Shown piece by piece: positions 19,329 to 56,013 of a stretch of DNA of 64,000 nt; position 1 is the first letter of the stretch, and every line of letters begins with the position of its first letter. The DNA comes from Halogeometricum limi (GTDB taxonomy: Archaea > Halobacteriota > Halobacteria > Halobacteriales > Haloferacaceae). The notes beneath the pieces were generated by a model, which saw only the letters and a program-made list of their open reading frames with translations, was not told the origin of the DNA and ran no database searches. The position numbers and the translations under genes are program-made. The stretch is taken from positions 62,001-126,000 of the forward strand of contig NZ_FOYS01000005.1 in NCBI RefSeq assembly GCF_900115785.1, read 5' to 3'.

Positions 19329-20207
19329 ATGCGATTCGTCCGCTACGACGACGACCAGCTAGGCGTACTCACCGACGACGGAACCGGGGTCATCGACCTG
19401 ACCGACCGCCTCGGACTCGACGGCGACGAACCACTCGTCGAGTACATCGAAGGCGGGTACGACGCAGGCGAATACGCCGACGAGGACCCGGACCACGACG
19501 TCGAGGACGTGACGCTCCGTTCTCCCGTCGGTCGTCCGGGGAAAGTCATCGCCGCACCCTTGAACTACGAGAACCACATCGAGGAGGCCATCTCGGACCG
19601 CGACATCACCACCGACGAGTGGTTCTCCATCAAGGACAAAGGCTACTTCCTGAAGGCGCCGTCGAGCGTCGTCGGCCCGGACCACGGCGTCGAACTTCCG
19701 TTCACGGACCGACGAACCGACCACGAGATAGAACTCGCGTTCGTGATGGGTAGCGACGCGAAAGACGTCTCCGCCGAGGAGGCGTGGGACCACATCTTCG
19801 GCTACACCATCCTCCTCGACATCTCGCTCCGCGGCGACCAGGACCGCTCGAACCGCAAGTCCTACGACACGTTCACCGTCGTCGGTCCGTGCGTGACGAC
19901 GGTCGACGAGATACCCGACCCGCAGGACCTCCAGATGGAACTGCGACTCAACGGTGAACGCCGCCAGTACGAGAACACCGGCGACATGGTGTACACCTGC
20001 GCCGACGTGGTCCAGTACGCCTCCCTCGGTGCGACGCTGGAAGTCGGCGATATCGTCACGACGGGGACGCCGGAGGGCGTCAGCGAACTCTCGGACGGCG
20101 ACACCATCGAGGCGGAGATAGAGCGAATCGGTTCGATGACCGTCGACGTGCGGGGACGGGACGTGAGTTACGCGGATGCGAACGTGCAGAAGGGCGGACA
20201 GGAGTAG
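19329..20207 (+). CDS. Fumarylacetoacetate hydrolase family protein
   Basis: The protein (292 aa) has the FAH C-terminal fold. Metal-site acidic residues are in DHEIELAFVMG (E-x-E) and in the GYTILLDISLRGDQ segment, and the closing LEVGDIVTTGTPEGVS is diagnostic. The N-terminal 75 residues form the small cap typical of archaeal and bacterial members. The family cleaves C-C bonds in acylpyruvates (fumarylpyruvate, maleylpyruvate and similar). A gentisate dioxygenase-like gene lies next to it, convergently, so hydrolysis of the gentisate ring-cleavage product is the most economical role. A leaderless promoter is present. Confidence 0.88.
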   Translation: MRFVRYDDDQLGVLTDDGTGVIDLTDRLGLDGDEPLVEYIEGGYDAGEYADEDPDHDVEDVTLRSPVGRPGKVIAAPLNYENHIEEAISDRDITTDEWFSIKDKGYFLKAPSSVVGPDHGVELPFTDRRTDHEIELAFVMGSDAKDVSAEEAWDHIFGYTILLDISLRGDQDRSNRKSYDTFTVVGPCVTTVDEIPDPQDLQMELRLNGERRQYENTGDMVYTCADVVQYASLGATLEVGDIVTTGTPEGVSELSDGDTIEAEIERIGSMTVDVRGRDVSYADANVQKGGQE

Positions 20208-20252
20208 ACGCGCGGACAGAAGCAGCGGTCGCAGTGGCGGTCCGCCCCCGCT

Positions 20253-21332
20253 TCACTCGGCGGGCGTCGCTTCGGCGTAGAAGTTGAACGCCTCGAACAC
20301 CGGCCGGTCGGTCATCCCGAGGAGGACGGCTTCGCCGTCTGGGTCGTGGTGGTGCGGCGCGTCCGGCGGGACGACGAAGATGTCCCGTTCGGCCCACTCC
20401 AACGCCTCGCCGTCCACGTGCGTCGCGCCCTCGCCTTCGACGACGAAGTACACCTCCACGGCGTTGTGGAAGTGCGGGTCGGTCGCCTCCTGTAACAACT
20501 GCGCGCGGAACGACATCGTCGGGAACAGCGGTTCTCTCCCGGTCGACGGGTTGACGTAGGCGACGCTGTAGCCGTCGTGCGGGTCCGGGTCGTCGTTCTC
20601 GACTCGCTGTTCCAGCGTCTCCAGCATCTCGTCCCACCCGAATCGGTACGGCGGCGTCGGCTCTCTCGTCCCCTGAAACGGCCCCGGAATGTCGCCCGAC
20701 TTCTCGTTCGCCGGTCGTCCGCGACCGTACTGTGAGTCCCAGTACCCTTGCGTCTTCGTCACCGGTTGGCGTTCGAGTTCGTGATTCTCGAAGACGTTGC
20801 TCCGACTCATCGAATCGAGGATGAGCGGCAGGTCGAGGACGTCCAACCACGCCGCCGTCTCGTCGGAGTCGTTGACGTGGTCGTGCCACTCCCACTGCGG
20901 AGTGGTGATCAGGTCGTTGTCCTCCATCGGGAACTCCTCGCCCGCGACGACCGTCTTCATGTCCTCGTGGCCGTCGATTGCGAACCGCATCGCGTTGGCT
21001 CCGTGGCGATGCGCGGGTGCCGTCTCACCCGGCGAGACGGTCTGGATGCCGACGTAGATGGTGTTCGAGACGGCCGTGTTCAGTCCGGCGTTTATCGGGA
21101 CGGCGACCCGTCGCTGGAACCCCGGCGGCAACTCGGCGATGGGGACGTCGGATTCGATGCCGTCGATGGCCGCCTGAATATCCTCCCACTTCCAGATGTC
21201 CGCCTGCATCTCGTCGAAGACGTGCCCGAAGTCCTCTTGGACCTCCCACAGCGGTCTGAGACGGTTCGATTCGAGGATATCCCTCGTGTCCGTACTCAGC
21301 TCTAAGAGTTCCGCTGGCTCTTTCTGACCCAT
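20253..21332 (-). CDS. Gentisate 1,2-dioxygenase-like bicupin
   Basis: The protein (359 aa) is a double cupin. The first cupin has the iron ligands H108 and H110 (PAHRHGANAMRF) and H150/H152 (PQWEWHDHVND). The second (about 270-345) has PHFHNAVEVYFVVEGEG and PPDAPHHHDP. The order and wording match gentisate dioxygenases and 1-hydroxy-2-naphthoate dioxygenases, Fe(II) enzymes that open the ring of gentisate to maleylpyruvate. ATG 21332 is preferred over TTG 21338 because a TATA-like element (21357-21362) sits 27 bases upstream. A gentisate dioxygenase is known from Haloferax sp. D1227. The neighbouring FAA hydrolase and thioesterase support a gentisate route. Confidence 0.87.
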   Translation of the reverse strand: MGQKEPAELLELSTDTRDILESNRLRPLWEVQEDFGHVFDEMQADIWKWEDIQAAIDGIESDVPIAELPPGFQRRVAVPINAGLNTAVSNTIYVGIQTVSPGETAPAHRHGANAMRFAIDGHEDMKTVVAGEEFPMEDNDLITTPQWEWHDHVNDSDETAAWLDVLDLPLILDSMSRSNVFENHELERQPVTKTQGYWDSQYGRGRPANEKSGDIPGPFQGTREPTPPYRFGWDEMLETLEQRVENDDPDPHDGYSVAYVNPSTGREPLFPTMSFRAQLLQEATDPHFHNAVEVYFVVEGEGATHVDGEALEWAERDIFVVPPDAPHHHDPDGEAVLLGMTDRPVFEAFNFYAEATPAE

Positions 21333-21356
21333 GGACAACAGTTACCACAGATTCGA

Positions 21357-21362
21357 CATAAG
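21357..21362 (-). promoter_or_regulatory. TATA-like element for the gentisate dioxygenase-like gene
   Basis: CTTATG on the minus strand, centred about 27 bases before ATG 21332, which supports that start. Confidence 0.45.
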
Positions 21363-21418
21363 TGTACTGGAGGTTCGACGCCGTCGGGCGTCCGGTCCAG
21401 TCGCCGCCAGTCGGGCGA

Positions 21419-21589
21419 TTACACCTGGGCCTCGAACACGTCGGCGGACGGAAAGACCTCCAGACAGTCTTCGCAGACCATCTGCCCCTGAATGGCGTAC
21501 TCCCAGAGTTTCCCGCCGCAGTCCAGGCAGTCGAAGTGCGCTCTGACGAACGGGTCCGCTTCGGCGTACGGGTTCTCGAACTCGGTCAT
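21419..21589 (-). CDS. Small zinc-ribbon protein (56 aa)
   Basis: Translating from ATG 21589 gives 56 residues beginning MTEFENPYAEADPFVRAHFD, with two CxxC pairs, C21/C24 (CLDCGGKLWEY) and C39/C42 (CEDCLEVFPS), then a TAA stop. The acidic composition and the regular zinc-ribbon spacing make it a real gene despite its size. It sits between the thioesterase and the gentisate dioxygenase on the same strand, so a role linked to that pathway (for example iron or cofactor handling, or regulation) is possible but unproven. Confidence 0.75.
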   Translation of the reverse strand: MTEFENPYAEADPFVRAHFDCLDCGGKLWEYAIQGQMVCEDCLEVFPSADVFEAQV

Positions 21590-21632
21590 ACTGATTGGGT
21601 ACGGACGTGGTGTGTAAAAACGTACCCCGAAG

Positions 21633-22034
21633 TCACTCGCTCGCGTAGACCGCCAGGGCCTCCGCGAGTTCGTCGGGGAGTTCCCGCACCTCGCCGCCTC
21701 GTTCGACGCACACGCGCTGTTCGTAGCCGGAGAACACCACTTCGTCGACGTGGCGAGCGACGTAGTCGAACCGGACGCTCCGCGTTCCCACGTCCGTCGT
21801 CAGTTCGACGATGACGTCGTCGCCGGCTTCGACGGGCGATTCGAACTCGAAGTTCATCTCGACGAGCGGGAGGCCGAAGCCGTGTTCGTCCACGATGTCC
21901 CAGTACGGCCAGCCGATGTCCTGCATGAACGCGTCCGACACCTCGTGCACCGCGTCGACGATGCGCGGGTAGTGAGCGATGCCGAACGGGTCGGTGTCGG
22001 AGAAGCGAACCGTCCAGACGCGCTCGTACGTCAT
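21633..22034 (-). CDS. Acyl-CoA thioesterase, 4-hydroxybenzoyl-CoA thioesterase type (hot-dog)
   Basis: The protein (133 aa) is a single hot-dog domain. It has the N-terminal signature of the 4HBT/YbgC group, VRFSDTDPFGIAHYPRIVD (Asp 13/15 and His 21), and the central strand NFEFESPVEAGDDVIVE. It would hydrolyse an acyl- or aryl-CoA thioester. Beside a gentisate dioxygenase-like gene and acyl-CoA ligases, 3-hydroxybenzoyl-CoA or gentisyl-CoA are attractive substrates; that is inference. Its ATG overlaps the stop of the ATP-grasp synthetase subunit by 4 bp, so the two are co-translated. Confidence 0.88.
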   Translation of the reverse strand: MTYERVWTVRFSDTDPFGIAHYPRIVDAVHEVSDAFMQDIGWPYWDIVDEHGFGLPLVEMNFEFESPVEAGDDVIVELTTDVGTRSVRFDYVARHVDEVVFSGYEQRVCVERGGEVRELPDELAEALAVYASE

Positions 22035-25687: not shown

Positions 25688-27235
25688 CTACCCCTCGGGG
25701 AAGTACCGGTCCGCCAGTTCGCCGCGCACTATCTTCCCCGTCTCCGTCCGCGGGAGCGAGTCGCTCGTGACGACGTACTCTCGCGGCCGCTTGAAGTTCG
25801 CCAGTCCGTCGTGGTCGAGACAGAACTGCGAGAGGTCGTCGGCCGTGAGGTCGGCGTCCGTGACGACGACGGCGGTGACGACGTTGTCCCACTCGTCGTC
25901 GGGCGTCCCGAAGACGCACGCCTCTCTCACGTCGGGGTGGCTCTCCAGCGCGCGTTCGACTTCGGCGGGGTAAACGTTCTCGCCGCCGCTGAGTATCATG
26001 TTGTCAACCCGGTCGACGACGTAGAGGAAGCCGTCTTCGTCGACTTCGGCCACGTCTCGCGTCCGAAGCCAGCCGTCGAAGTACGTCTTCGCCTCGGCTT
26101 CGGGGTTGTCGATGTACCCCGTCGACATCCCGGGCCCGCGGGCGAGTATCTCGCCGCGCTCACCCGCGTCGACGGTGGCTTCGGGGTCGGGGTTCTCCGA
26201 CAGCGGGGCCGGTTCGACGACGCGGAGTTCGTAGGAGAACGCCTCCTTCCCGATGGTTCCGGGGCGCTCTCGCTGTACCTCGGGATGCGCGTACGACAAG
26301 TTCGGCCCTCCCTCGGTCATCCCGTACGTGTTGTAGATTCGCTCGCCGAGTCGCTCTGCGGTCTCTTCGACGAGACGCTTCGTCAGCGGCGAGCCACCGG
26401 TCCGGACGTACGACAGCGAACTCGTGTCGTACCCCTCCTCGGCCTGCACCGCGTTCAGCCGTCGCAACTGCGTCGGGACGGCGAGGAGTCCGGTCACGTC
26501 GCGTTCCTCGACGAGTTCGAGCGCTCCGCGCGGGTCGAACGACCGTTGGAGCACCACCGTCGCGCCCGCGACGAAGTGCGGGTAGAGCCACGCGTCCGTC
26601 GTCACCATGTGATACCACGGCGTCGTGCAGAGCGCCACGTCCGTCTCGTCTATTCCCTGCTCCATCACGCCCTGAATCGCCCCGTACCACAGTTGTTCTT
26701 GGTCGAACGGCACCGCCTTGGGCGTGCTCGTGGTCCCACTCGTGTAGAGGACGGCGCACTCGTCGCCGATTGGGTGGTCGTCTCGGCGGTCTGGCGACGC
26801 CGCGTCGAGAACCGCCTCGTACGACTCCACGTCGTCGTGTTCGACGGTTGCGTCGCCGGCGTGAATCGCGGCGTCGAACGTCCCTCTGTCCAGGAGTTCG
26901 AGCGCCGTCTCGACGTTCCCGTCGTCGAAGAGAAGCGCTCGGGCGGACGCCGTCTCCGCCATCTCGACGAGTTCTCCGGTCGTCGCGCGGAACGACAGTT
27001 GCACCGTCGCGACGCCCCGTTCGTTGCCCGCGAGCATCGCCGTTATCGCCGGCGGTCCGTTGTGCGCGAGGACAGCACAACGCGCGGACCCGACGCGCCT
27101 CTCCAGCGCGTTCGCGAGGCGCGTGCTTCGCTCGTCTAACTCGCGGTAACTGAACGCCCGTCCGTCTTCGGTGACGAGAGCCGTCTCAGTCGGATAACAC
27201 CGCACCGTCCTGTCGAACGCCTCTACGAGCTTCAT
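25688..27235 (-). CDS. AMP-forming acyl/aryl-CoA ligase
   Basis: A 515-aa ANL-superfamily adenylating enzyme. Core motifs are LYTSGTTSTPKAVPFDQ (P-loop, residues about 167-183), TYGMTEGGPNLSY (A5), DGWLRTRDVAEVDEDGFLYV (A7/A8 hinge) and the catalytic lysine near the C-terminus in PRTETGKIVRGEL. It converts a carboxylic acid, ATP and CoA into acyl-CoA via an acyl-adenylate. The neighbourhood (gentisate dioxygenase, thioesterase, IclR regulator) favours a benzoate-like or hydroxybenzoate substrate, but fatty acids cannot be excluded. The next gene on the same strand upstream is the IclR regulator. Confidence 0.88.
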   Translation of the reverse strand: MKLVEAFDRTVRCYPTETALVTEDGRAFSYRELDERSTRLANALERRVGSARCAVLAHNGPPAITAMLAGNERGVATVQLSFRATTGELVEMAETASARALLFDDGNVETALELLDRGTFDAAIHAGDATVEHDDVESYEAVLDAASPDRRDDHPIGDECAVLYTSGTTSTPKAVPFDQEQLWYGAIQGVMEQGIDETDVALCTTPWYHMVTTDAWLYPHFVAGATVVLQRSFDPRGALELVEERDVTGLLAVPTQLRRLNAVQAEEGYDTSSLSYVRTGGSPLTKRLVEETAERLGERIYNTYGMTEGGPNLSYAHPEVQRERPGTIGKEAFSYELRVVEPAPLSENPDPEATVDAGERGEILARGPGMSTGYIDNPEAEAKTYFDGWLRTRDVAEVDEDGFLYVVDRVDNMILSGGENVYPAEVERALESHPDVREACVFGTPDDEWDNVVTAVVVTDADLTADDLSQFCLDHDGLANFKRPREYVVTSDSLPRTETGKIVRGELADRYFPEG

Positions 27236-44705: not shown

Positions 44706-46343
44706 ATGCAAGCACGCGTCCCAGCTGAGAAGCTACCCGACGCGGGTACGGGTCCAGAACTGATTCACGCGGTTCCGGAAGTCCACTACCCCCAGCACGT
44801 GAACGTGGTGACCGAACTCGTCGACAGACACGTCGAAGACGGCCACGGAGACGACCCGGCCGTCCGGTTCGAGGACGACGAACTCTCGTACGCCGAACTG
44901 CAGTCGAAGGTGAACAGCTTCGGCAACGCGCTCTCGGAACTCGGCGTCGAACCGGGAAGCCGCGTCGTCGTCCGCTTCCCGAACCGTCCGGAAGCCGTTA
45001 TCGCCTGCCTCGCGGTCCAGAAACTCGGCGGCGTCGCCCTGCCGTCGATGAAGCTCCTCAGAGCGAAGGAACTGGAGTACATCTTCAACGACTCCGGGGC
45101 GACACACTGCGTCGTCTACGACGCGCTCTTGGACGAGGTGGAGAACGCGATGCCCAATCTCGAAACGCTCGACGACGTCGTCGTCGCGGACCGCGGGGCG
45201 GACGTGGAACACGACCACCACGACTTCGACGACCTACTCGACGGGGCCTCCGACGACCTCGACGCCTACGAGACCGAACGCGACGACCTCGCACTCATGC
45301 TGTACACGAGCGGAACGACGGGCCGTCCGAAGGGGGCGATTCACACCCACCGGCAGATGCTCGCGACGGCCGACTGCTACGCGCGCTACTGTCTCGAACC
45401 CACCCGCGACGACGTGTTCGGCGGCAACCCGCCGCTCCCGTTCGCGTACGGGTTCGGTGACCTCGTCACCTTCCCGCTTCGGTTCGGCGCGACGACGAGT
45501 CTCGTCGAGGACGCCAAACCCGGCGACCTGTTGGACGCCGTCGAGAACCACGGTATCACCATCCTCTGCTCGATTCCGACCGCGTTCAACCAGATTCTCT
45601 CGGCGCACCCCGACGCCGCCGACGAGTACGACCTCTCCAGCCTCCGCGCGGGGATGAGCGCGGGCGAACCGCTGGCTCCGAGCACGTTCGACGCGTTCGA
45701 AGACGAGTTCGGCGTCCCTCTCTTGGACGGTATCGGGACGACTGAGATGCTCCACATCTTCGTCAGCCACCGGCACGACGGGGATATCGACCCCTCCGCG
45801 ACGGGCTTCCCCGTCCCCGGCTACGAGTGTCGCGTCGTCGACCCGGACACGATGGAGGAGATGCCGCGCGGCGAGGCCGGTCTGTTGGCCGTTCGCGGTC
45901 CGACGGGTATCTCCTACTGGGGCCGCCCGGACAAACAGGAGGACGCCGTCGTCGACGGATGGAGCTTCCCCGGCGACATCTACGTCCACCGCGAGGACGG
46001 CCGTCTGGAGTACAAGTCGCGCCGCGACGACCTCATCATCTCTTCGGGCTACAACATCCCCGGTCCCGAAGTGGAGAACGTCCTGCAGGAACTGGACGCC
46101 GTCTCGGAGGTGGCCGTCGTCGGCGCACCGCACGAGGAACGCGGTCAGATAGTCAAGGCGTTCGTCGTCCTCGCGGAGGGGTTCGAAGGGAGCGACGAAC
46201 TCGTCGACGAGTTCCAGAACCACGTCAAGAACACGCTCGCTCCGTACAAGTACCCGCGCGCCATCGAGTTCGTGGAGACCCTCCCGCGGACGGAGACCGG
46301 AAAGATTCAGCGCATCAAACTCCGCGAACGCGAACAGGAGTAA
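44706..46343 (+). CDS. Benzoate-CoA ligase-like acyl-CoA synthetase
   Basis: A 545-aa ANL enzyme with LMLYTSGTTGRPKGAIHTHR (P-loop, about 198-217), GIGTTEMLHIFVSH (A5), GWSFPGDIYVHREDGRLEYK (A7), RRDDLIISSGYNIPGPEVEN (hinge A8) and the C-terminal lysine in PRTETGKIQRIKLRE. The N-terminal leader (PELIHAVPEVHYPQHVNVVT) and the GDIY/KSRRDD wording resemble benzoate- and 2-aminobenzoate-CoA ligases more than fatty-acid enzymes. In this setting it could activate benzoate, phenylacetate or a related acid; no separate paaK-type ligase is seen in the window. It has its own promoter. Confidence 0.85.
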   Translation: MQARVPAEKLPDAGTGPELIHAVPEVHYPQHVNVVTELVDRHVEDGHGDDPAVRFEDDELSYAELQSKVNSFGNALSELGVEPGSRVVVRFPNRPEAVIACLAVQKLGGVALPSMKLLRAKELEYIFNDSGATHCVVYDALLDEVENAMPNLETLDDVVVADRGADVEHDHHDFDDLLDGASDDLDAYETERDDLALMLYTSGTTGRPKGAIHTHRQMLATADCYARYCLEPTRDDVFGGNPPLPFAYGFGDLVTFPLRFGATTSLVEDAKPGDLLDAVENHGITILCSIPTAFNQILSAHPDAADEYDLSSLRAGMSAGEPLAPSTFDAFEDEFGVPLLDGIGTTEMLHIFVSHRHDGDIDPSATGFPVPGYECRVVDPDTMEEMPRGEAGLLAVRGPTGISYWGRPDKQEDAVVDGWSFPGDIYVHREDGRLEYKSRRDDLIISSGYNIPGPEVENVLQELDAVSEVAVVGAPHEERGQIVKAFVVLAEGFEGSDELVDEFQNHVKNTLAPYKYPRAIEFVETLPRTETGKIQRIKLREREQE

Positions 46344-47059: not shown

Positions 47060-47560
47060 ATGGCACGAACGTACACCACGTCAGAAGAGTACCTCCCCGA
47101 GGACACCGACGGAGAGGTCACCCTCCAGGTGACGGACACGGAGTCACGCGAGATATTTCGGACGCGGGCGCGGGTGTCTCGGGACCCGGACGGACTGAGA
47201 GACCCCGCCCCGCTGACCGTCGTGAAGGGGCCGCACGAGAACATCGAAGAGCAGTGGTACATCGACTTCATCGAGACGGACGTCGGCGACGCCGAGGTGG
47301 ACACGGACCTCCTCCGCGAGTGCTTAGAAGAGGCCCGCGAGGACTCGGACCTCCTGAACGCCCGTTCGGAGGAGTTGCGTGCGATGCTACAGTATCTCGT
47401 TCGGAGCGGGGAGTACGGGTCGCTCTCGGACGCGGTCCGTTCGCTTCTCTCCGCGCAACTGTCCACCGCACACCCCGAGTTGGTCGACGAGTACGTCGAC
47501 CTCAGGACGGCCGTCGAACGCGAGTCCGTCGCCGCCGCGTTTCGGGGTGACGAGCGGTGA
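47060..47560 (+). CDS. Putative regulator with ribbon-helix-helix-like segment, first gene of UbiD operon
   Basis: The product (166 aa) is not a family I recognise as a whole. The N-terminal 80 residues are beta-rich (EVTLQVTDTESREIFRTRAR, then PLTVVKGPHENIEEQWYIDF). The C-terminal part contains SEELRAMLQYLVRSGEYGSL followed by SDAVRSLLSAQL (about 103-134), which closely follows the helix-turn-helix pair of ribbon-helix-helix regulators (LxxLVxxGxYxSxSDAVRxxL). Its stop overlaps the UbiD start by 4 bp, so it is made with UbiD. It could be an autoregulator or a fused sensor acting on the dyad at 46957-46970; that is inference. Confidence 0.65.
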   Translation: MARTYTTSEEYLPEDTDGEVTLQVTDTESREIFRTRARVSRDPDGLRDPAPLTVVKGPHENIEEQWYIDFIETDVGDAEVDTDLLRECLEEAREDSDLLNARSEELRAMLQYLVRSGEYGSLSDAVRSLLSAQLSTAHPELVDEYVDLRTAVERESVAAAFRGDER

Positions 47561-49065
47561 GCGACGACGGGGACGGAATCGCCTCCGAACCGAGCCTCCG
47601 GGCCTACCTCGACACGTTGGACGAGGCGGGTGACCTCGTCCGCGTCACCGACGAGGTGTCGTGGGACCTCGAAGCCAGCGCCATCGCCATGCGGGCCGGC
47701 GAACGAGACGCCCAGATACCGCTGTTCGAGTCGGTCGCCCGAAGCGGCGTCCCCGGTGCGCGACTGGTCGGCGACCCGTACCGCGGGTCGCAGCGTCGAC
47801 CGTGGGACCGCATCGCCACCGCTCTCGGCCTCCCCGCGGACACCGACGGCGCGACGTACTACGACGCGATGCTCGAACGCCTGACCGACCCCGTGGAACC
47901 GACGACGGTGGCCTCGACGCCCGACGCCGCCCCGTGTAAGGAAGTGGTCCACGTCGGCGACGACGTCGACCTGCTGTCGTTCCCGTGGCCGTACATCCAC
48001 TCCGGCGACGGCGGGCGGTACTCGAACCTCCACACCCTCGTCGCGCCGGACCCCGACTCCGAGTGGGTCGACTGGTCGACGCACCGAGCGATGGTCCACG
48101 ACGACAGGCAGGCGAGCGTCCTCTTGCTAGCGGGCGAGCAGACGCCGAACCTCTTCTACTACAAGTACGAACGCCGCGACGAACCCATGCCCGTCGCCAT
48201 CGTCGTCGGCACGGAACCCGCCGTGCAGTGCACGTCGGTGATGTGGATTCCGACCGGCAGCGACGAGGCGCGGTACGCGGGCGGCCTGCGTCGCGCGCCG
48301 GTCGAACTCGTTCAGTGCGAGACGAACGACCTGTACGTCCCGGCCAACGCCGAACTCGTCGTCGAGGGACACCTCGTCCCCGACAAGCGACTCGACGAGG
48401 GGCCGTTCGGCGACTACTTCGGCTACATGCACGGCCCTCGTCGTTCGATGCCGGCGCTCGAAGTCGACGCCGTCACGCACCGCGAGTCGCCCATCATCCC
48501 GTTCTGCGTCGAGGGGACGGGCGTCGGCTACACGGAGAACACGACGAGTTCGATGGAGGCGGGATGCGTCGGCCCCGACGCGACGCTCGGCCTCCGAGCG
48601 GCCGGATTCGACGTGATTCGGTGCGTCCCGTGGCAGTTCACGCCCCGCACCGCCTACGTGGTGGCGACGGAGACGAACGACCCCGGCGCGCTCCACGAAC
48701 TGGCGAACTTCATCTTCACGACGTGGGGGATGCTCCACATCGACTTCTTCATCTTCGTCGACGCCTCCGTCGACCCGTTCGACACGCGAGAGGTGCTCGA
48801 AGCCATCGCCCTCCACGCCGACCCGGACGCGGACTTCCACCAGTTCGGGACGGAGACGATGCCGAAGGTGCCGCTGAACATCTATCAGACGCCGGATGAG
48901 AAGGGAGACGCGCAGACGGGGACGTCGAAGGCGAAGACGGCGAAGGCGTACATCGACGCGACGGGGTCGGCGGCCGCACGACCGGACGTCGTCTCCGCCG
49001 ACAGTCGTGACCGCGCGCGGGAGTTGCTGGCGACGGCGGGCGTCGTCGCCGAGGAGGGCGAGTGA
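47557..49065 (+). CDS. ubiD: UbiD-family decarboxylase (probable catalytic subunit)
   Basis: A full-length UbiD-family protein (502 aa). The diagnostic active-site segment is LDEGPFGDYFGYMHGPR at about 279-295; the first Glu (E281) is present, while the second acidic residue, usually Glu, is Asp (D286). Also typical are FPWPYIHSGDGGRYSNLHTL, PMPVAIVVGTEPAVQCTSV and the C-terminal TIWGMLHIDFFIF-like segment. UbiD enzymes carry out reversible decarboxylation of aromatic or alpha,beta-unsaturated acids using prenylated FMN. The flavin prenyltransferase UbiX is not in the window. GTG start overlapping the previous gene; the second UbiD-like gene follows with TGATG overlap. Confidence 0.88.
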   Translation: MSDDGDGIASEPSLRAYLDTLDEAGDLVRVTDEVSWDLEASAIAMRAGERDAQIPLFESVARSGVPGARLVGDPYRGSQRRPWDRIATALGLPADTDGATYYDAMLERLTDPVEPTTVASTPDAAPCKEVVHVGDDVDLLSFPWPYIHSGDGGRYSNLHTLVAPDPDSEWVDWSTHRAMVHDDRQASVLLLAGEQTPNLFYYKYERRDEPMPVAIVVGTEPAVQCTSVMWIPTGSDEARYAGGLRRAPVELVQCETNDLYVPANAELVVEGHLVPDKRLDEGPFGDYFGYMHGPRRSMPALEVDAVTHRESPIIPFCVEGTGVGYTENTTSSMEAGCVGPDATLGLRAAGFDVIRCVPWQFTPRTAYVVATETNDPGALHELANFIFTTWGMLHIDFFIFVDASVDPFDTREVLEAIALHADPDADFHQFGTETMPKVPLNIYQTPDEKGDAQTGTSKAKTAKAYIDATGSAAARPDVVSADSRDRARELLATAGVVAEEGE

Positions 49066-50471
49066 TGGAGTTCAGAGAGACGGTCGACGCGTTGGCGACG
49101 GCGGACGACCTCGTGACGATAGACGAGCGAATCGACGACCCGACCCTCCCGTTCGCAGTCGCGGCCGAGAGCGCGCGCTCGAACGGTCCGGCGGTCCTCC
49201 TGTCCGACGTTCCGGGCGAGGGGAGTCTCGCGTGCGGCGTCCGCGGCGGTCCGGACCGGATGCTCAGGAGAGCGCGCTTGCCGTGGTACCGCTACGCGGT
49301 GGGGATGGGACTCCCAGCCGACACCTCGTACGGGCGGATGCTCGACGTGCTGACCACGCCGCCGGCCGACCGCCCGTCGTTACGACGGCGCGCCGCCGCG
49401 GCGAGCGGACACGACCGGGACGTCACGTCGCTGTGTCTCCCCGTCGCCGGCGAGGACGACCGACAGTTGGTGTCCGACGGCATCCTCGCCGTCGAGGCGG
49501 GCGACCGGCAGTTGTGGGCCCCCGTCCGCGGCGAGGTTCGCGGCCGGTCGACGCTCCGCGTCCACGTGCCCGCCAGCGTCGCGAAGCGCGCGCCCGAGAA
49601 CGCACCCGTCTCGGTGGCGCTGGGCGTCCCGACGGCGGCACTCCTCGCCGCGCACCTCTCGTCGGCGCAGACGCAACCGTGGCGGCGCTGGTCCGCGCCG
49701 GAGGTTGCGGCGGCGCTGGACGACGTTCCGCTCGCGCCCTGCGCCGGCGGCCTCCTCCCCGCCAGCGCCGAAGTCGTCGTCGACGGGACGCTCACGCGCG
49801 CGGCGGGGTCGGCGACGGTTCCCCGGGCGGCGTGGGAGGACGTCGCCAACTCCGAACCGTTCGCCGTCGCCGTCGACCGCGTGGCGAGTCGGTCCGACCC
49901 AGTTCTCCCGCTCGCCCCCCTCGGCGAACCGCTGGGCGACGACACCCACCTGACGAGTCTCGTCGAAGGAGCGCGCCTGAGCGCGCGTGTGAACGGCTAC
50001 TGGGGCGTCTCACCGGTCAGTTGGATCGGTCTCCCCGTGGAAGCGGGACTCGGCGTCTGCTTCGTCGCCAGCGAGATTCTCTACGCGGGGTTCGAGTGGC
50101 AACTGGCGAACACGCTGTTCTCGTTCGGACCGACGTTCGACAAAGTCGTCGTGCTGGACACCGACGCGACGTTCGAGAACCTCGCTAGCGCGCTGGACGA
50201 CATGTGGGTGAAGGCGCACCCCTCTCACGACTGGATATTCAGCGAAGCGGCGGCCCCCGCCGCGACGGCCCCGTCGTACAGAGCGGACGGCCAGACGGGG
50301 TCACGGCTCTACGTCGACGCGGCGTGGGACCCCCGGTGGGACGAAGAGTTCATCGCCCCGGAAGTCGAGTTCGAGTTGATGTACCCAGAAGAGATTCGCG
50401 AGACGGTCGCGGAGCGATGGCACGCGCTCGGATTCGACGGGACCGAGACGTCGGAGGAGCGCGATGAGTGA
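49065..50471 (+). CDS. UbiD-like paralogue lacking the catalytic motif
   Basis: The protein (468 aa) shares the UbiD scaffold at both ends: MEFRETVDALATADDLVTID at the start, and in the second half VEAGLGVCFVASEILYAGFE, FGPTFDKVVVLDTDATFENL and a C-terminal MYPEEIRETVAERWHALGF. Where the first UbiD has EGPFGDYFGY, this sequence reads DGTLTRAAGSATVPRAAWED, without the Glu residues needed for catalysis. It looks like a non-catalytic or structural partner of the first UbiD, to which it is translationally coupled. Multi-subunit UbiD carboxylases exist (for example phenylphosphate carboxylase), so a hetero-oligomer is plausible. Position of the divergence was judged by eye. Confidence 0.75.
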   Translation: MEFRETVDALATADDLVTIDERIDDPTLPFAVAAESARSNGPAVLLSDVPGEGSLACGVRGGPDRMLRRARLPWYRYAVGMGLPADTSYGRMLDVLTTPPADRPSLRRRAAAASGHDRDVTSLCLPVAGEDDRQLVSDGILAVEAGDRQLWAPVRGEVRGRSTLRVHVPASVAKRAPENAPVSVALGVPTAALLAAHLSSAQTQPWRRWSAPEVAAALDDVPLAPCAGGLLPASAEVVVDGTLTRAAGSATVPRAAWEDVANSEPFAVAVDRVASRSDPVLPLAPLGEPLGDDTHLTSLVEGARLSARVNGYWGVSPVSWIGLPVEAGLGVCFVASEILYAGFEWQLANTLFSFGPTFDKVVVLDTDATFENLASALDDMWVKAHPSHDWIFSEAAAPAATAPSYRADGQTGSRLYVDAAWDPRWDEEFIAPEVEFELMYPEEIRETVAERWHALGFDGTETSEERDE

Positions 50472-51730: not shown

Positions 51731-52018
51731 TTACGGGCCCGCGTTCGATTCGAGTTTGAGGTCCGAACGCGCACGCGCGACGCAGGTGAGGACGTACCCT
51801 TCGTCTTTCTCGCTTCCGGAGAGGAACATCCCCTCGGTCTGTTCGACCTCTCCTTCGGTGACGCGAATCGCACTGCAGACGCCGCAGACGCCCATCCGGC
51901 ACTGGTACGGCAGGTCCAGTCCGGCCTCTTCCGCCGCTTCGAGTATCGGCTGGTCCGCGGACACCTGGATGGTGCGTCCTTCGTTCACGAATTCGACCTC
52001 GTACGTTTCAGTCATCAT
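51731..52018 (-). CDS. Plant-type 2Fe-2S ferredoxin, possible PaaE substitute
   Basis: The protein (95 aa) is a single ferredoxin domain with cluster ligands C40, C45, C48 and C79 (CRMGVCGVC ... LTCVAR). The typical beta-grasp start is TYEVEFVNEGRTIQVSADQP. It matches the ferredoxin half of PaaE, the reductase of phenylacetyl-CoA epoxidase, but has no FAD/NADPH reductase half. Lying just upstream of and divergent from paaA with only a GNAT gene between, it may deliver electrons to the epoxidase from a separate reductase. Its start overlaps the GNAT stop by 4 bp. Confidence 0.88.
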   Translation of the reverse strand: MMTETYEVEFVNEGRTIQVSADQPILEAAEEAGLDLPYQCRMGVCGVCSAIRVTEGEVEQTEGMFLSGSEKDEGYVLTCVARARSDLKLESNAGP

Positions 52019-52497
52019 TCCACCTGGCGCTCGTAGACGTGCTCGACCGGAGAGAAGCCCATCCGTTCGTAGGCCGCTTGCGCGTGGTCGTCGCCCTCGA
52101 TGACGTCGACGCGGCAGAACGTGATGTCCCGGTCGGACTCGCCGAACCAGTCGACAGCGGCCTCGACCAATCTGTCGCCGACGCCCTCGTCGCGGTGTTC
52201 TTCGACCACGTAGTGGCCGTTGATGTAGCCGTGGTCCGAGAGGCGGAAGATGGGGTGGTCGCCCGTCAACCGCGCCTCGATGACGCCGACGATGTCGTCG
52301 TCGGCCTCCGCGACGAACACCGCACCGTACTTCGAGTCGACCAGTTGATTCTCGAAGTACTGGAGCCACCGGTCGTCGGCGTCCTCCTTGTGCTGGTACC
52401 GTTCGTCGTACTGCGAGAGGTGCTCTGTGAATCCGTGCCACAGGTCGAGTAAGGCCGGTCCGTCGTCGGTGGTCGCTCGCCGTATTTCGATGTCCAT
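52015..52497 (-). CDS. GNAT-family N-acetyltransferase
   Basis: The protein (160 aa) has the GNAT core. Strand 4 (VFVAEADDDIVGVIEARL) leads to the acetyl-CoA pyrophosphate loop VVEEHRDEGVGDRLVEAAV (R/Q-x-x-G-x-G/A form), followed by DRDITFCRVDVIEGDDHAQA and AYERMGFSPVEHVYER at the end. It acetylates an amine on a small molecule or protein; substrate unknown. It is coupled to the ferredoxin gene and shares a 123-bp divergent promoter region with paaA, so expression alongside the phenylacetate genes is possible. Confidence 0.88.
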   Translation of the reverse strand: MDIEIRRATTDDGPALLDLWHGFTEHLSQYDERYQHKEDADDRWLQYFENQLVDSKYGAVFVAEADDDIVGVIEARLTGDHPIFRLSDHGYINGHYVVEEHRDEGVGDRLVEAAVDWFGESDRDITFCRVDVIEGDDHAQAAYERMGFSPVEHVYERQVE

Positions 52498-52620: not shown

Positions 52621-53544
52621 ATGCCGACTGAAAAGCAACTAAAGCAGCAGCTACAAGACGGGAAGATGATCGAGTCCGAGGAGCAGATGACCGAGGGCTA
52701 CAAGAAGGCCCTGACGCAGACGCTCCTCGTGTCCGGTGACACCGAACTGATGAGCGCACCGGCGTACTACGAGCCGTCGATGAACGCGCCGAGCGTGAAC
52801 GCGCGTGCGTCCTGTATCAGCGTCATCCAGGACGAACTCGGCCACGGCCACATCGCCTACCGCCTGCTCGAAGACCTGGGGTACGACCGCGAGTACCTCA
52901 TCCACGGCCGCGAACCGCACGAGTTCCGCAACACGTACGGGTTCGACCAGCCGTTGGAGAACTTCGCCGAACTGGTGACCGCGCACGGCCTGTGGGACCG
53001 CGCGGGCATCGCCCTGCTGTCGGACATCCACGAGAACACGTCGTACGCGCCGTGGAAGCGCGCGCTGACCAAAGTCGGCAAAGAAGAGCAGTTCCACCTG
53101 CGCCACGGCGAGACGTGGATGCGCAGACTCGCGAACAAGAACGACAAGACGAAACAGAAGGTCCAGGACGCCGTCGACTGGATGTTCCCCATCGCCTTGG
53201 AGTGGTTCGGACTCCCCGACGACAAGAAGAAGCACGACGACCAACTCGCGTACGCCATCAAGGGCCTCTCGAACGACGAGCTCCGCCAGAAGTGGATGGA
53301 CAGCGCCGTCCCCGTCTGCAACGAACTCGGCATCGACGTGCCCGCACACTACGACGAGGAGCGAGACGAGTACGTCGTGGAGTACGACCTCCCCGCGCAC
53401 TTCGACGCCGAGACGAAGACGTGGTACTTCGAGGAGAACACCTCGTGGGACGACGTCATCGACCGCTGGCGGGCGCGCGGCCCGGCCAACGAGAAGTACG
53501 TCGAACTCCTCCAGTCGGGGCAGATGGACCCCGTCTCCGCATGA
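52621..53544 (+). CDS. paaA: Phenylacetyl-CoA 1,2-epoxidase catalytic subunit PaaA
   Basis: The protein (307 aa) is close to the bacterial PaaA length (about 309). It is a ferritin-like helical protein with the two E-x-x-H diiron motifs, E72-x-x-H75 in QDELGHGHIAYRLLEDLGYD and E156-x-x-H159 in GKEEQFHLRHGETWM. With PaaC as its structural partner it epoxidises the ring of phenylacetyl-CoA using O2. The family-typical WMFPIALEWFGLPDDKK segment (about 180-196) is intact. It begins the operon; the next gene overlaps by 4 bp. Confidence 0.95.
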   Translation: MPTEKQLKQQLQDGKMIESEEQMTEGYKKALTQTLLVSGDTELMSAPAYYEPSMNAPSVNARASCISVIQDELGHGHIAYRLLEDLGYDREYLIHGREPHEFRNTYGFDQPLENFAELVTAHGLWDRAGIALLSDIHENTSYAPWKRALTKVGKEEQFHLRHGETWMRRLANKNDKTKQKVQDAVDWMFPIALEWFGLPDDKKKHDDQLAYAIKGLSNDELRQKWMDSAVPVCNELGIDVPAHYDEERDEYVVEYDLPAHFDAETKTWYFEENTSWDDVIDRWRARGPANEKYVELLQSGQMDPVSA

Positions 53545-53918
53545 GCGTGCAACACCAACAGAACGCCGCGGGCTTCGGCCCCGGCGACGACGCCACCGCC
53601 TTCGAGGAGGATATCTGGGCGAACCTCGACGAGATTCCGGACCCGCACATCCCGGTGAGCCTCGTCGAGATGGCGATGATATACGACGTCCACGTCGAGC
53701 AGACGCCCGACGGCGCGGACGTCCTCGTGGAGATGACGTTCCCGTGCATGGGTTGCCCCGCGTACGACATGATACTCGACGACATCCGCGCCTGCCTGCG
53801 CACGATGTCCGGCGTCCGCGACGTAGAGGTCGACGTGGTCTGGAGCCCGCTCTGGGAGAAGAGCATGTTGACAGCGGAGGTTCGAGAGAAGCTTCGTGAG
53901 TCCGGTATCGCACTATGA
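53541..53918 (+). CDS. paaD: PaaD-like MIP18 (DUF59) protein, N-terminal part of PaaD only
   Basis: The protein (125 aa) is a MIP18/DUF59 domain with DPHIPVSLVEMAMIYDVHVE and the Cys pair C69/C72 in TFPCMGCPAYDMI, then VEVDVVWSPLWEKSMLT. Bacterial PaaD (PaaJ) has this domain plus a C-terminal zinc ribbon; here the zinc ribbon is missing and is encoded separately at 54900-55064. PaaD is thought to help assemble or maintain the iron centre of the epoxidase. Overlaps of 4 bp with both paaA and paaB show tight coupling, although in bacteria paaD usually follows paaC. Confidence 0.9.
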   Translation: MSVQHQQNAAGFGPGDDATAFEEDIWANLDEIPDPHIPVSLVEMAMIYDVHVEQTPDGADVLVEMTFPCMGCPAYDMILDDIRACLRTMSGVRDVEVDVVWSPLWEKSMLTAEVREKLRESGIAL

Positions 53919-54127
53919 AGTACGAGGTGTTCGCCAGAATCAACGCCGGAGACGAACTCATCAACGTCGGCAACGTCGACGCGGAGAACGACCGTCTCGC
54001 GAAGGTGTACGCCTACCGAACGTTCGACGAGGAGGACTGGGACCGACTCGTCGTCGTCCGCCGCGACAACGTCCTCGACGCGACGAACGTCGGCCGGATG
54101 CCCGACTCACCGGGTGATACGGCATGA
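53915..54127 (+). CDS. paaB: Phenylacetyl-CoA epoxidase subunit PaaB
   Basis: The protein (70 aa) has the PaaB pattern YEVFARINAGDELINVGNVD, then AYRTFDEEDWDRLVVVRRDN, but is shorter than bacterial PaaB (about 95 aa), mainly at the C-terminus. PaaB bridges PaaAC dimers and is needed for activity. It sits between paaD-like and paaC genes with 4-bp overlaps on both sides. Confidence 0.88.
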   Translation: MKYEVFARINAGDELINVGNVDAENDRLAKVYAYRTFDEEDWDRLVVVRRDNVLDATNVGRMPDSPGDTA

Positions 54128-54894
54128 GCGAGTGGTCCGCCGAAGCGGTCGACTACGTGCAGTCGGTCGCGGACACGAAACTCGTGTTGTCGCAGCGATA
54201 CGCCCAGTGGATGCTCTCGGGGCCGGTGCTCGAAGACGACATCGCGGGCGCCAGCGCCGCACAGGACGAACTCGGTCACGTCCGCCAGTTGTTCCGACTG
54301 CTCGGCCAACAGGGCCGCGAGAACGACTGGCTGGAGGGTGACCGCTCGGCGACGGAGTTCGCGAACGCCGCGTCCGTCGACGACAACCCCGAGTCGTGGG
54401 TGGAGTTCGTCGTCACCATGGGGCTGACCGAACGCGCCGCGTGGTACCTCATCGACGCCATCGTCCACGACGACTTCGAGGGACTCGGCACTCGAATCGG
54501 GCAGGACGAGTTCTTCCACCTTGAGTTCCTCGACGGTCGACTGGAGACGCTCGGCGACGAACAGACGGACGCCGTCGTCGCCGCACTCGAGTCGACGCTG
54601 CCGGCGATACTCGCGTTCCTCGGGCCGGCCGCCTACGACGACGACGCGGACCCACTCCTCGAATCGGGGTTCACCGACCGCTCGGCGGCCGCACTCCGCA
54701 CCGCGTTCCGCGCGCGCTACGAGGAGATATTCGCGGGCACCGACGTCGACGTCGACGCACTCGACGTGGACTGGGACGCGCCGTCGCTCGACGAGTGGAA
54801 CGAGTCGCGTCGGCGGACCGACGAGGGGTCCATCTCCGACGCCGACGTCGAATCGCTCAGCGGCGTCCAGAACGCCGAGTTCCGGATGGACTGA
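54124..54894 (+). CDS. paaC: Phenylacetyl-CoA epoxidase structural subunit PaaC
   Basis: The protein (256 aa) is the ferritin-like partner of PaaA. It keeps E49-x-x-H52 (QDELGHVRQLFRLLGQQG) and E129-x-x-H132 (IGQDEFFHLEFLDGRLE), although PaaC of bacteria is regarded as non-catalytic. PaaC-typical wording includes the start KLVLSQRYAQWMLSGPVLED. The length is normal. It overlaps paaB by 4 bp, and the zinc-ribbon gene starts 5 bp after its stop. Confidence 0.93.
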   Translation: MSEWSAEAVDYVQSVADTKLVLSQRYAQWMLSGPVLEDDIAGASAAQDELGHVRQLFRLLGQQGRENDWLEGDRSATEFANAASVDDNPESWVEFVVTMGLTERAAWYLIDAIVHDDFEGLGTRIGQDEFFHLEFLDGRLETLGDEQTDAVVAALESTLPAILAFLGPAAYDDDADPLLESGFTDRSAAALRTAFRARYEEIFAGTDVDVDALDVDWDAPSLDEWNESRRRTDEGSISDADVESLSGVQNAEFRMD

Positions 54895-54899
54895 GACTC

Positions 54900-55064
54900 A
54901 TGTCCGCCGAGCACCCAGAGTGTCCGTTCTGCGGGTCGACCGAGACCGAACGGCACTCGCAGTTCGGGTCGGAAGTCTCGAAGAGTCAGTACTACTGCAA
55001 CGACTGCCACACGGTCTTCGAGCGCATCAAGTACGACGGCGACGTGGCCGACACGGGCAGATAG
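54900..55064 (+). CDS. Zinc ribbon matching the C-terminal domain of PaaD, as a separate gene
   Basis: The product (54 aa) reads ECPFCGSTETERHSQFGSEV, then SKSQYYCNDCHTVFERIKYD, with zinc ligands C8, C11, C33, C36. Bacterial PaaD ends in CPxCGS...S.FGST.CKA.Y.C..C...F..FK, which this copies position by position. PaaD is therefore split here into a MIP18 gene and this ribbon gene, the last of the operon. The two proteins presumably associate. Start at ATG 54900, 5 bp after paaC. Confidence 0.88.
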   Translation: MSAEHPECPFCGSTETERHSQFGSEVSKSQYYCNDCHTVFERIKYDGDVADTGR

Positions 55065-55173: not shown

Positions 55174-56013
55174 ATGGAGACTTTCGCAGAACTCGACCTC
55201 GAGAATTTCGAGACAGAGATGGACGGCCACGTCGGTATCGTTCGACTGAACAAACCGCCGGCGAACGCCCACAACGCCGACATGGTCTTCGAGTTCCAGA
55301 AGATGGTCGAGACCATCCGGTTCGACGACACGGTTCGCTGTGCCGTCCTCAGCAGTACGAGTGACAAGTTCTTCTCGTCCGGCTACGACATCCAGGCGCT
55401 CCAAGACGAGAGCCCCGAGCACATCGGCTACGCGAGTCAGACGAGCAAGGAATCCATTCTGAAGATGCGCTCGACCGACACGATCTTCGTGTCCGCAATC
55501 GACGGCCACTGCATGGGCGGCGGCCTCGAGTTCGCTCTCGCGACGGACATCCGCTACGCGGGCGACGACGACAACTACAACATGGGCGTCCCCGAGATCA
55601 ACCTCGGTCTCATCCCCGGCGAGGCGGGCACGCAACTGCTCCCCCGCTACGTCGGCATCTCGAAGGCGCTCAAGATGATGCTCAAAGACGAGCGTCTCAC
55701 CCCGAGTGAAGCACAGGAAGCCGGCATCGTCGACGAACTCGTCGAACCCGGCACCGCCGAAGAGGAAGCAATCGAGTTCGCAAAACACGTCGCGAGCCTC
55801 CCGAACCAGGCCGTCGGTCACATCAAAGTCGCCGTCAACGAGGGGATGGAGATGTCGCTGTACGACGCACTCGCGCACGAACGCGAACTGCAGAACCAAC
55901 TGTTCGACACCCCGGGCGCGAAAGAGGGTATCTCTGCGTTCCTCGAAAAGCGCGAACCCAACTTCATCGAGGCCGAACTCGGCGAAGACGCCATCACCAG
56001 CGACGACGACTGA
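55174..56013 (+). CDS. Enoyl-CoA hydratase/isomerase, PaaG/PaaF-like
   Basis: A 279-aa crotonase-fold protein with KFFSSGYDIQAL (about 66-77) and IDGHCMGGGLEFALATDIRY (oxyanion hole), and MGVPEINLGLIPGEAGTQLL carrying one of the usual acidic residues. In the phenylacetate pathway PaaG isomerises the ring epoxide to oxepin-CoA and later a double bond, and PaaF hydrates. Position directly after the epoxidase operon favours PaaG, but the motifs alone do not decide between isomerase and hydratase. It has its own promoter. Confidence 0.85.
   Translation: METFAELDLENFETEMDGHVGIVRLNKPPANAHNADMVFEFQKMVETIRFDDTVRCAVLSSTSDKFFSSGYDIQALQDESPEHIGYASQTSKESILKMRSTDTIFVSAIDGHCMGGGLEFALATDIRYAGDDDNYNMGVPEINLGLIPGEAGTQLLPRYVGISKALKMMLKDERLTPSEAQEAGIVDELVEPGTAEEEAIEFAKHVASLPNQAVGHIKVAVNEGMEMSLYDALAHERELQNQLFDTPGAKEGISAFLEKREPNFIEAELGEDAITSDDD

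Follow-up and report, generated by a model that had tools for sequence, protein, structure and literature searches.

The closest described systems to the operon reported here are the 1,2-phenylacetyl-CoA epoxidase of Escherichia coli K-12 and the canonical paaABCDE operons of haloarchaea. In the PaaACB structure, subunits C and B form the scaffold, and PaaD is reviewed as one protein of unknown function that is required in vivo although dispensable in vitro, and that resembles SufT (PMC4498308). The bacterial PaaD model, TIGR02159, describes a MIP18 domain and a zinc ribbon within a single chain. For canonical haloarchaea, a two-gene PaaD is already known at the level of annotation, modelled by NCBIfam as PaaD (NF041868) and the ribbon (NF041869), with the operon on Haloferax mediterranei pHME505, to which PaaK is linked, as an example. 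NF041869 (for example L060:5348-5515) calls the ribbon 'PaaE', a name also borne by the reductase subunit of bacteria, to which it is unrelated; this invites mis-annotation. A survey from 2026 that covered 6,536 genomes describes archaeal pathways as incomplete and, in its accessible text, mentions neither a split PaaD nor a second type of operon (PMC13186573).

A Paa-type operon with PaaD in two genes

The window, a stretch of 64,000 nucleotides from Halogeometricum limi, carries five consecutive genes on the + strand between 52621 and 55064, in the order A-D-B-C-Z.

52621..53544, + strand: A, PaaA-like catalytic diiron subunit, 307 aa (PF05138, TIGR02156)
53541..53918, + strand: D, MIP18/DUF59 half of PaaD, 125 aa, its own gene (PF01883, TIGR02159, NF041868, hhalign)
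53915..54127, + strand: B, short PaaB-like bridging subunit, 70 aa (profile-profile match with PaaB)
54124..54894, + strand: C, PaaC-like structural subunit, 256 aa (PF05138, TIGR02158, A+C tree)
54900..55064, + strand: Z, zinc-ribbon half of PaaD, 54 aa, its own gene (PF23451, TIGR02159, hhalign)

Overlaps of 4 nt (ATGA) join A to D, D to B and B to C, and 5 nt separate C from the start of Z, an arrangement typical of a single operon. Subunit A matches PF05138 with 214.6 bits (cut-off 28.5) and TIGR02156 with 139.8 bits, below the cut-off of 280. Aligned to E. coli PaaA, it retains all six diiron ligands (E, E, H, D, E, H), at the positions given by the motif of the E. coli protein. Subunit C matches PF05138 with 86.4 bits (cut-off 28.5) and TIGR02158 with 51.8 bits, and a joint tree places it in the PaaC half and A in the PaaA half. 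Taken alone, B is weak, scoring 19 bits with TIGR02157 and falling under the Pfam and NCBIfam cut-offs; it is identified as PaaB by profile-profile comparison (E 3e-10, probability 96.8).

In C, the first metal ligand is changed from Glu to Lys. The same Lys occupies this position in type-2 C subunits (the type is defined below), most of which read KEHDEH. All six diiron ligands (EEHDEH) are present in the PaaC of 16 of 16 canonical haloarchaeal sequences and of Deinococcus, and most of the six positions are lost in the PaaC of the other bacteria examined (sequences cited for these ligands are L015:8318-9187 on the - strand, L057:3683-4474 and window 54124-54894). Haloarchaeal PaaC, described as structural, may bind metal. 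In the closest named relative, Halogeometricum pallidum, the C gene (L047:7908-8858) is spread over three overlapping frame matches, which suggests frameshifts or assembly errors.

An earlier note on this DNA had proposed that the MIP18 domain and the zinc ribbon together make up the whole of PaaD, as two genes flanking paaB and paaC. This proposal holds. D matches PF01883 (FeS_assembly_P) with 66.5 bits and covers positions 1-89 of the 146 in TIGR02159, whereas Z covers positions 105-144, with no overlap; both domains are thus present and homologous, but in separate genes and not in one chain. Against a full PaaD profile built from ten fused bacterial proteins, hhalign aligns the MIP18 protein D with columns 7-108 (E 1e-28) and the ribbon Z with columns 124-165 (E 7e-16), so that alignment to full-length PaaD again assigns the two products to non-overlapping parts. 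The note had also allowed that the ribbon might match another family better. We rejected this, since the best Pfam model for Z is the 'PaaD zinc ribbon' PF23451 (65.2 bits, cut-off 27). Z is a four-cysteine zinc ribbon in which every Cys is present, as is the FG motif. The best model for D is NF041868 (paad_haloarch), at 104.3 bits under a cut-off of 180, ahead of SufT (75 bits), SUF_assoc (66) and bacterial PaaD (65).

The same genome contains a second Paa set, on contig C2, in the canonical order A-B-C-D-Z, with D and Z adjacent yet separate. Searches of the whole genome for the ribbon and the MIP18 domain found no full-length PaaD, which the note had left as a possibility. They account for two PaaD-type ribbons that score above the cut-off, each encoded by a gene of its own, and for four MIP18 domains, two of which are the D proteins of the operons and two of which are distant; four genes of the PaaA/PaaC family are present. 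The window proteins are only 30% (A), 28% (B), 30% (C), 37% (D) and 39% (Z) identical to these canonical copies, and they score far under the cut-offs of the haloarchaeal models NF041867-NF041869 (D 104 of 180, Z 42 of 100 and B 14.5 of 150 bits). Given these scores and the low identities, the window operon is a different type, a subfamily separate from the haloarchaeal paa operon, which we call type 2 (A-D-B-C-Z). The order that the note had given, A-D(N)-B-C-D(C), and its coordinates hold, but it is not that of a rearranged haloarchaeal paa operon, the canonical order being found elsewhere in the genome. The note was right about the two halves of PaaD; that they belong to a separate subfamily beside a canonical operon, that the canonical split is already modelled in NCBIfam, and that the context speaks against phenylacetyl-CoA went unrecognised.

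Distribution, neighbouring genes and likely substrate

Among 292 haloarchaeal genomes, C homologs fall into a close group of 50-60% identity and a distant canonical group of about 30%, and type 2 is found in 32 genomes (31 and H. limi itself), 21 of them without a canonical operon and 11 with both. The order is A-D-B-C-Z in all 30 haloarchaeal loci examined, with an enoyl-CoA hydratase directly downstream in 25. All 103 ribbons carry CxxC...CxxC, and together with the constant order this indicates that the D/Z arrangement is not due to chance. D and Z are both kept in every complete type-2 locus read, and they lie in separate frames in every haloarchaeal locus that holds both.

The survey of paa operons for the same split, which the earlier note had advised, extends beyond haloarchaea. 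Thermus thermophilus plasmid pHB5018c (JMH49_RS12545-12525) has A-D-B-C-Z followed by an enoyl-CoA hydratase, a separate ribbon, and an A protein 54% identical to that of the window. Agrobacterium pAtLMG292b and Natrialbaceae AArc-T1-2 share the order and the separate ribbon but form a deeper branch ('type 3') with other neighbours, the Agrobacterium A being 37% identical. In contrast, D and Z are in one frame in 11 of 11 canonical bacterial loci examined (E. coli, Acinetobacter, Pseudomonas, Paracoccus, Azospirillum, Deinococcus, Saprospira, Streptomyces, Gordonia, Nonomuraea and a divergent Rhodococcus ruber), a thin bacterial sample that is nearly all plasmid-borne and is set against two bacterial type-2-like loci. 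The canonical haloarchaeal operons, like that of the window, combine PaaABC homologs with D and the ribbon as two genes; they differ in their A-B-C-D-Z order with D and Z adjacent, and are 26-40% identical to the window proteins. The E. coli enzyme shares subunits A, B and C, both PaaD domains and the diiron ligands of A; bacterial paaABCDE differs in its one-chain PaaD, its gene order and its linked ligase, and where it has the reductase PaaE, the window has a neighbouring ferredoxin gene.

Several features of individual loci were recorded along the way. The ribbon genes of Thermus and Agrobacterium (L049:10383-10517 and L052:10277-10411) are missing from the supplied annotation, and in Thermus the annotated start of the enoyl-CoA hydratase (10414) overlaps the ribbon gene. 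One genome (G119; L156, 5545-8687) has A-B-C-Z on one strand with the MIP18 gene divergent upstream, and branches early in the A and C trees. Lone distant PaaA-like proteins occur in Paracoccus, where one follows paaE, and on Alteromonas plasmids, where one has a radical SAM gene and MaoC next to it (L064:8289-9041 and L062:4809-5561).

Around the window operon lie the following genes.

44706..46343, + strand: AMP-forming ligase of the benzoate-CoA ligase family, probable aryl-CoA supplier (TIGR02262, 370.4 bits, just under the cut-off of 375.25)
47557..50471, + strand: two UbiD-family genes, 47557-49065 and 49062-50471 (PF01977/PF20696)
51731..52015, - strand: 2Fe-2S plant-type ferredoxin, probable electron donor (TIGR02008, 85.4 bits, cut-off 81.15)
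52015..52497, - strand: GNAT acetyltransferase, divergent partner gene (PF00583)
55174..56013, + strand: enoyl-CoA hydratase/isomerase, likely next pathway step (PF00378, 187 bits)

The ferredoxin and GNAT genes adjoin the type-2 operon in 14 of 14 haloarchaeal neighbourhoods examined. A CoA-transferase pair, an acyl-CoA dehydrogenase, an aldehyde dehydrogenase, a thiolase and the two UbiD genes also recur, the second UbiD gene in 10 and the first in 7 of 15 neighbourhoods. In the Thermus stretch examined, ferredoxin, GNAT and ligase were not found; in Halobaculum CBA1158 the stretch of neighbourhood examined likewise lacks the ligase, which is located further off in the genome.

Co-occurrence of ligases bears on the substrate. 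The benzoate-CoA-ligase-family enzyme (67-80% identity) is present in 31 of 32 type-2 genomes but absent from all 20 canonical-only genomes (Fisher p 2e-13); a PaaK-like ligase (E below 1e-150) occurs in 0 of 21 genomes with type 2 only, in 8 of 11 with both operons and in 14 of 20 with the canonical one only (0/21 against 14/20, Fisher p 1e-6), although these tests treat related genomes as independent and part of the signal could reflect one mobile gene cluster. The single PaaK-like gene of H. limi lies on C2 near the canonical operon, not with type 2. Two related genomes, G008 and G015, have one in-frame TAG in the benzoate-CoA-ligase-family gene.

Type 2 might simply be a second phenylacetyl-CoA epoxidase, a paralog acting on the same substrate with its genes reshuffled. 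The same subunits, the same six ligands and the adjoining enoyl-CoA hydratase are consistent with this, as is the presence of the canonical operon in 11 of the 32 type-2 genomes. Nevertheless, A is so distant from canonical PaaA, and the distribution of PaaK and the accompanying ligase differ so clearly between the two types, that we regard this explanation as unlikely. Because PaaK is absent from type-2-only genomes and a different ligase accompanies type 2, phenylacetyl-CoA is unlikely to be the main type-2 substrate; on gene content, a benzoyl-type CoA ester is our best guess. The BoxAB benzoyl-CoA epoxidase would be a possible functional analogy, pairing supply by a benzoate-CoA ligase with diiron epoxidation of the ring, the latter described for BoxB (PMC5489048). 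The window also contains a gentisate-type cluster (19329-22034 and 25688-27235), with genes for a gentisate/5-aminosalicylate 1,2-dioxygenase-like protein, a fumarylacetoacetate-hydrolase-family protein, a thioesterase-like protein and an AMP-forming ligase. Feeding of a gentisate pathway by type 2 was rejected as obligatory, since a gentisate-dioxygenase-like gene is found in just 16 of the 32 type-2 genomes. BoxAB has a subunit set different from that of the Paa-type enzymes.

Ancestry of the separate D and Z genes

Because PaaA and PaaC are paralogous, we built one joint tree in which each half roots the other. The branch between the A and C halves has support of 100/99. In the A half, a canonical clade (100/99) unites split haloarchaeal with fused bacterial forms, and the A-D-B-C-Z types are sister to it (99/93). 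In the C half, the fused forms are nested (96/92) inside the canonical clade (100/99) and the type-2-like forms fall outside it, although the grouping of Thermus and G119 with type 2 is not firm in this half. The C proteins of Thermus and Agrobacterium, as well as Rhodococcus ruber, sit on long branches. Split forms thus occur on both sides of the root, with fused forms nested among canonical ones, and a mixture-model run agrees. The approximately unbiased (AU) test rejected a single clade of all split PaaA (p 7e-5), of all split C (p 0.021) and of all haloarchaeal A (p 2e-5); a single clade of fused A was not rejected (p 0.50). In the tree of D, the fused forms are one clade (94/98), requiring one change of state, with a weak outgroup root. 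Taken by itself, the A tree is compatible with two fusions.

The earlier note had offered two explanations, an ancestral two-part state or a fission in haloarchaea. In the second, a full-length bacterial PaaD was acquired and then split, and the window operon is a rearranged copy. In its favour, PaaD is split in all haloarchaeal loci examined, and in a sample of 393 genomes from the phylum PF05138 was found only in Halobacteria, as would be expected had the class acquired it. However, Thermus and Agrobacterium show this split and order too, no fewer than two independent fissions would be required, and the AU tests reject both a single haloarchaeal and a single split PaaA clade. We therefore rejected haloarchaeal fission, which we consider highly unlikely, and the ancestral two-part state is the one supported. 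In the simplest history, D and Z start out as separate genes and fuse about once, in the bacterial lineage, the direction of change being one that we infer from parsimony and paralog rooting. The long branches and the thin bacterial sample limit this reconstruction. The two genes would have stayed apart around B and C in type 2, lie adjacent in canonical haloarchaea, and have fused, most likely once, in the canonical bacterial lineage.

Proposed working of the type-2 enzyme and its significance

It is likely, in our judgement, that the window operon represents an early-branching subfamily of PaaABC-type aryl-CoA diiron monooxygenases with D and Z in their ancestral separate state and a substrate that is likely a ligase-made aryl-CoA. 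Because all six diiron ligands are kept, A should be the oxygenase and carry the diiron site, with B and C as its scaffold. The window operon contains no FAD reductase, and the neighbouring 2Fe-2S ferredoxin is a likely donor of electrons. The linked benzoate-CoA-ligase-family enzyme would supply the substrate, an aryl-CoA. Since bacterial PaaD is needed in vivo and not in vitro, and is SufT-like, D and Z probably help to load metal, jointly doing the maturation job of the one-chain protein. D and Z are kept as separate chains in every complete type-2 locus read, and we infer from this that the PaaD domains are able to act in trans. That neither protein has to do with PaaD function, D being instead an iron-sulfur factor of the SufT type and Z a zinc protein acting on its own, is likewise highly unlikely: MIP18 proteins are widespread and the SufT score of D is near that for bacterial PaaD, but haloarchaeal PaaD is its best model, the PaaD ribbon with its four Cys and FG motif is the best Pfam match of Z, and the two genes occur together in every complete type-2 locus and are adjacent or fused elsewhere.

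We put forward only tentatively the more specific proposal of a new aryl-CoA epoxidase subfamily, spread over haloarchaea, Thermus and Agrobacterium, that acts on benzoyl-type CoA esters as a Box-analogous enzyme assembled from Paa parts, and whose ancestral two-chain PaaD gave rise to the fused bacterial protein. The component families are known. In open-licence papers, our searches turned up neither the type-2 operon nor the PaaD split, no experiment on type 2, and no account of the A-D-B-C-Z subfamily, its spread across domains, its substrate signal or the polarity of the fusion.

A natural two-chain PaaD suggests that the domains work in trans, so that each could be deleted, tagged or swapped alone in organisms whose only Paa-type enzyme is type 2 (21 genomes here). 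The 2026 survey recommends PaaA and PaaC as markers of the phenylacetate pathway (PMC13186573), and type 2 would yield false positives for these markers. The type-2 operon would encode an uncharacterised aryl-CoA oxidising enzyme that is at present labelled just 'Phenylacetic acid catabolic protein', and the operon is probably mistaken for one of phenylacetate degradation.
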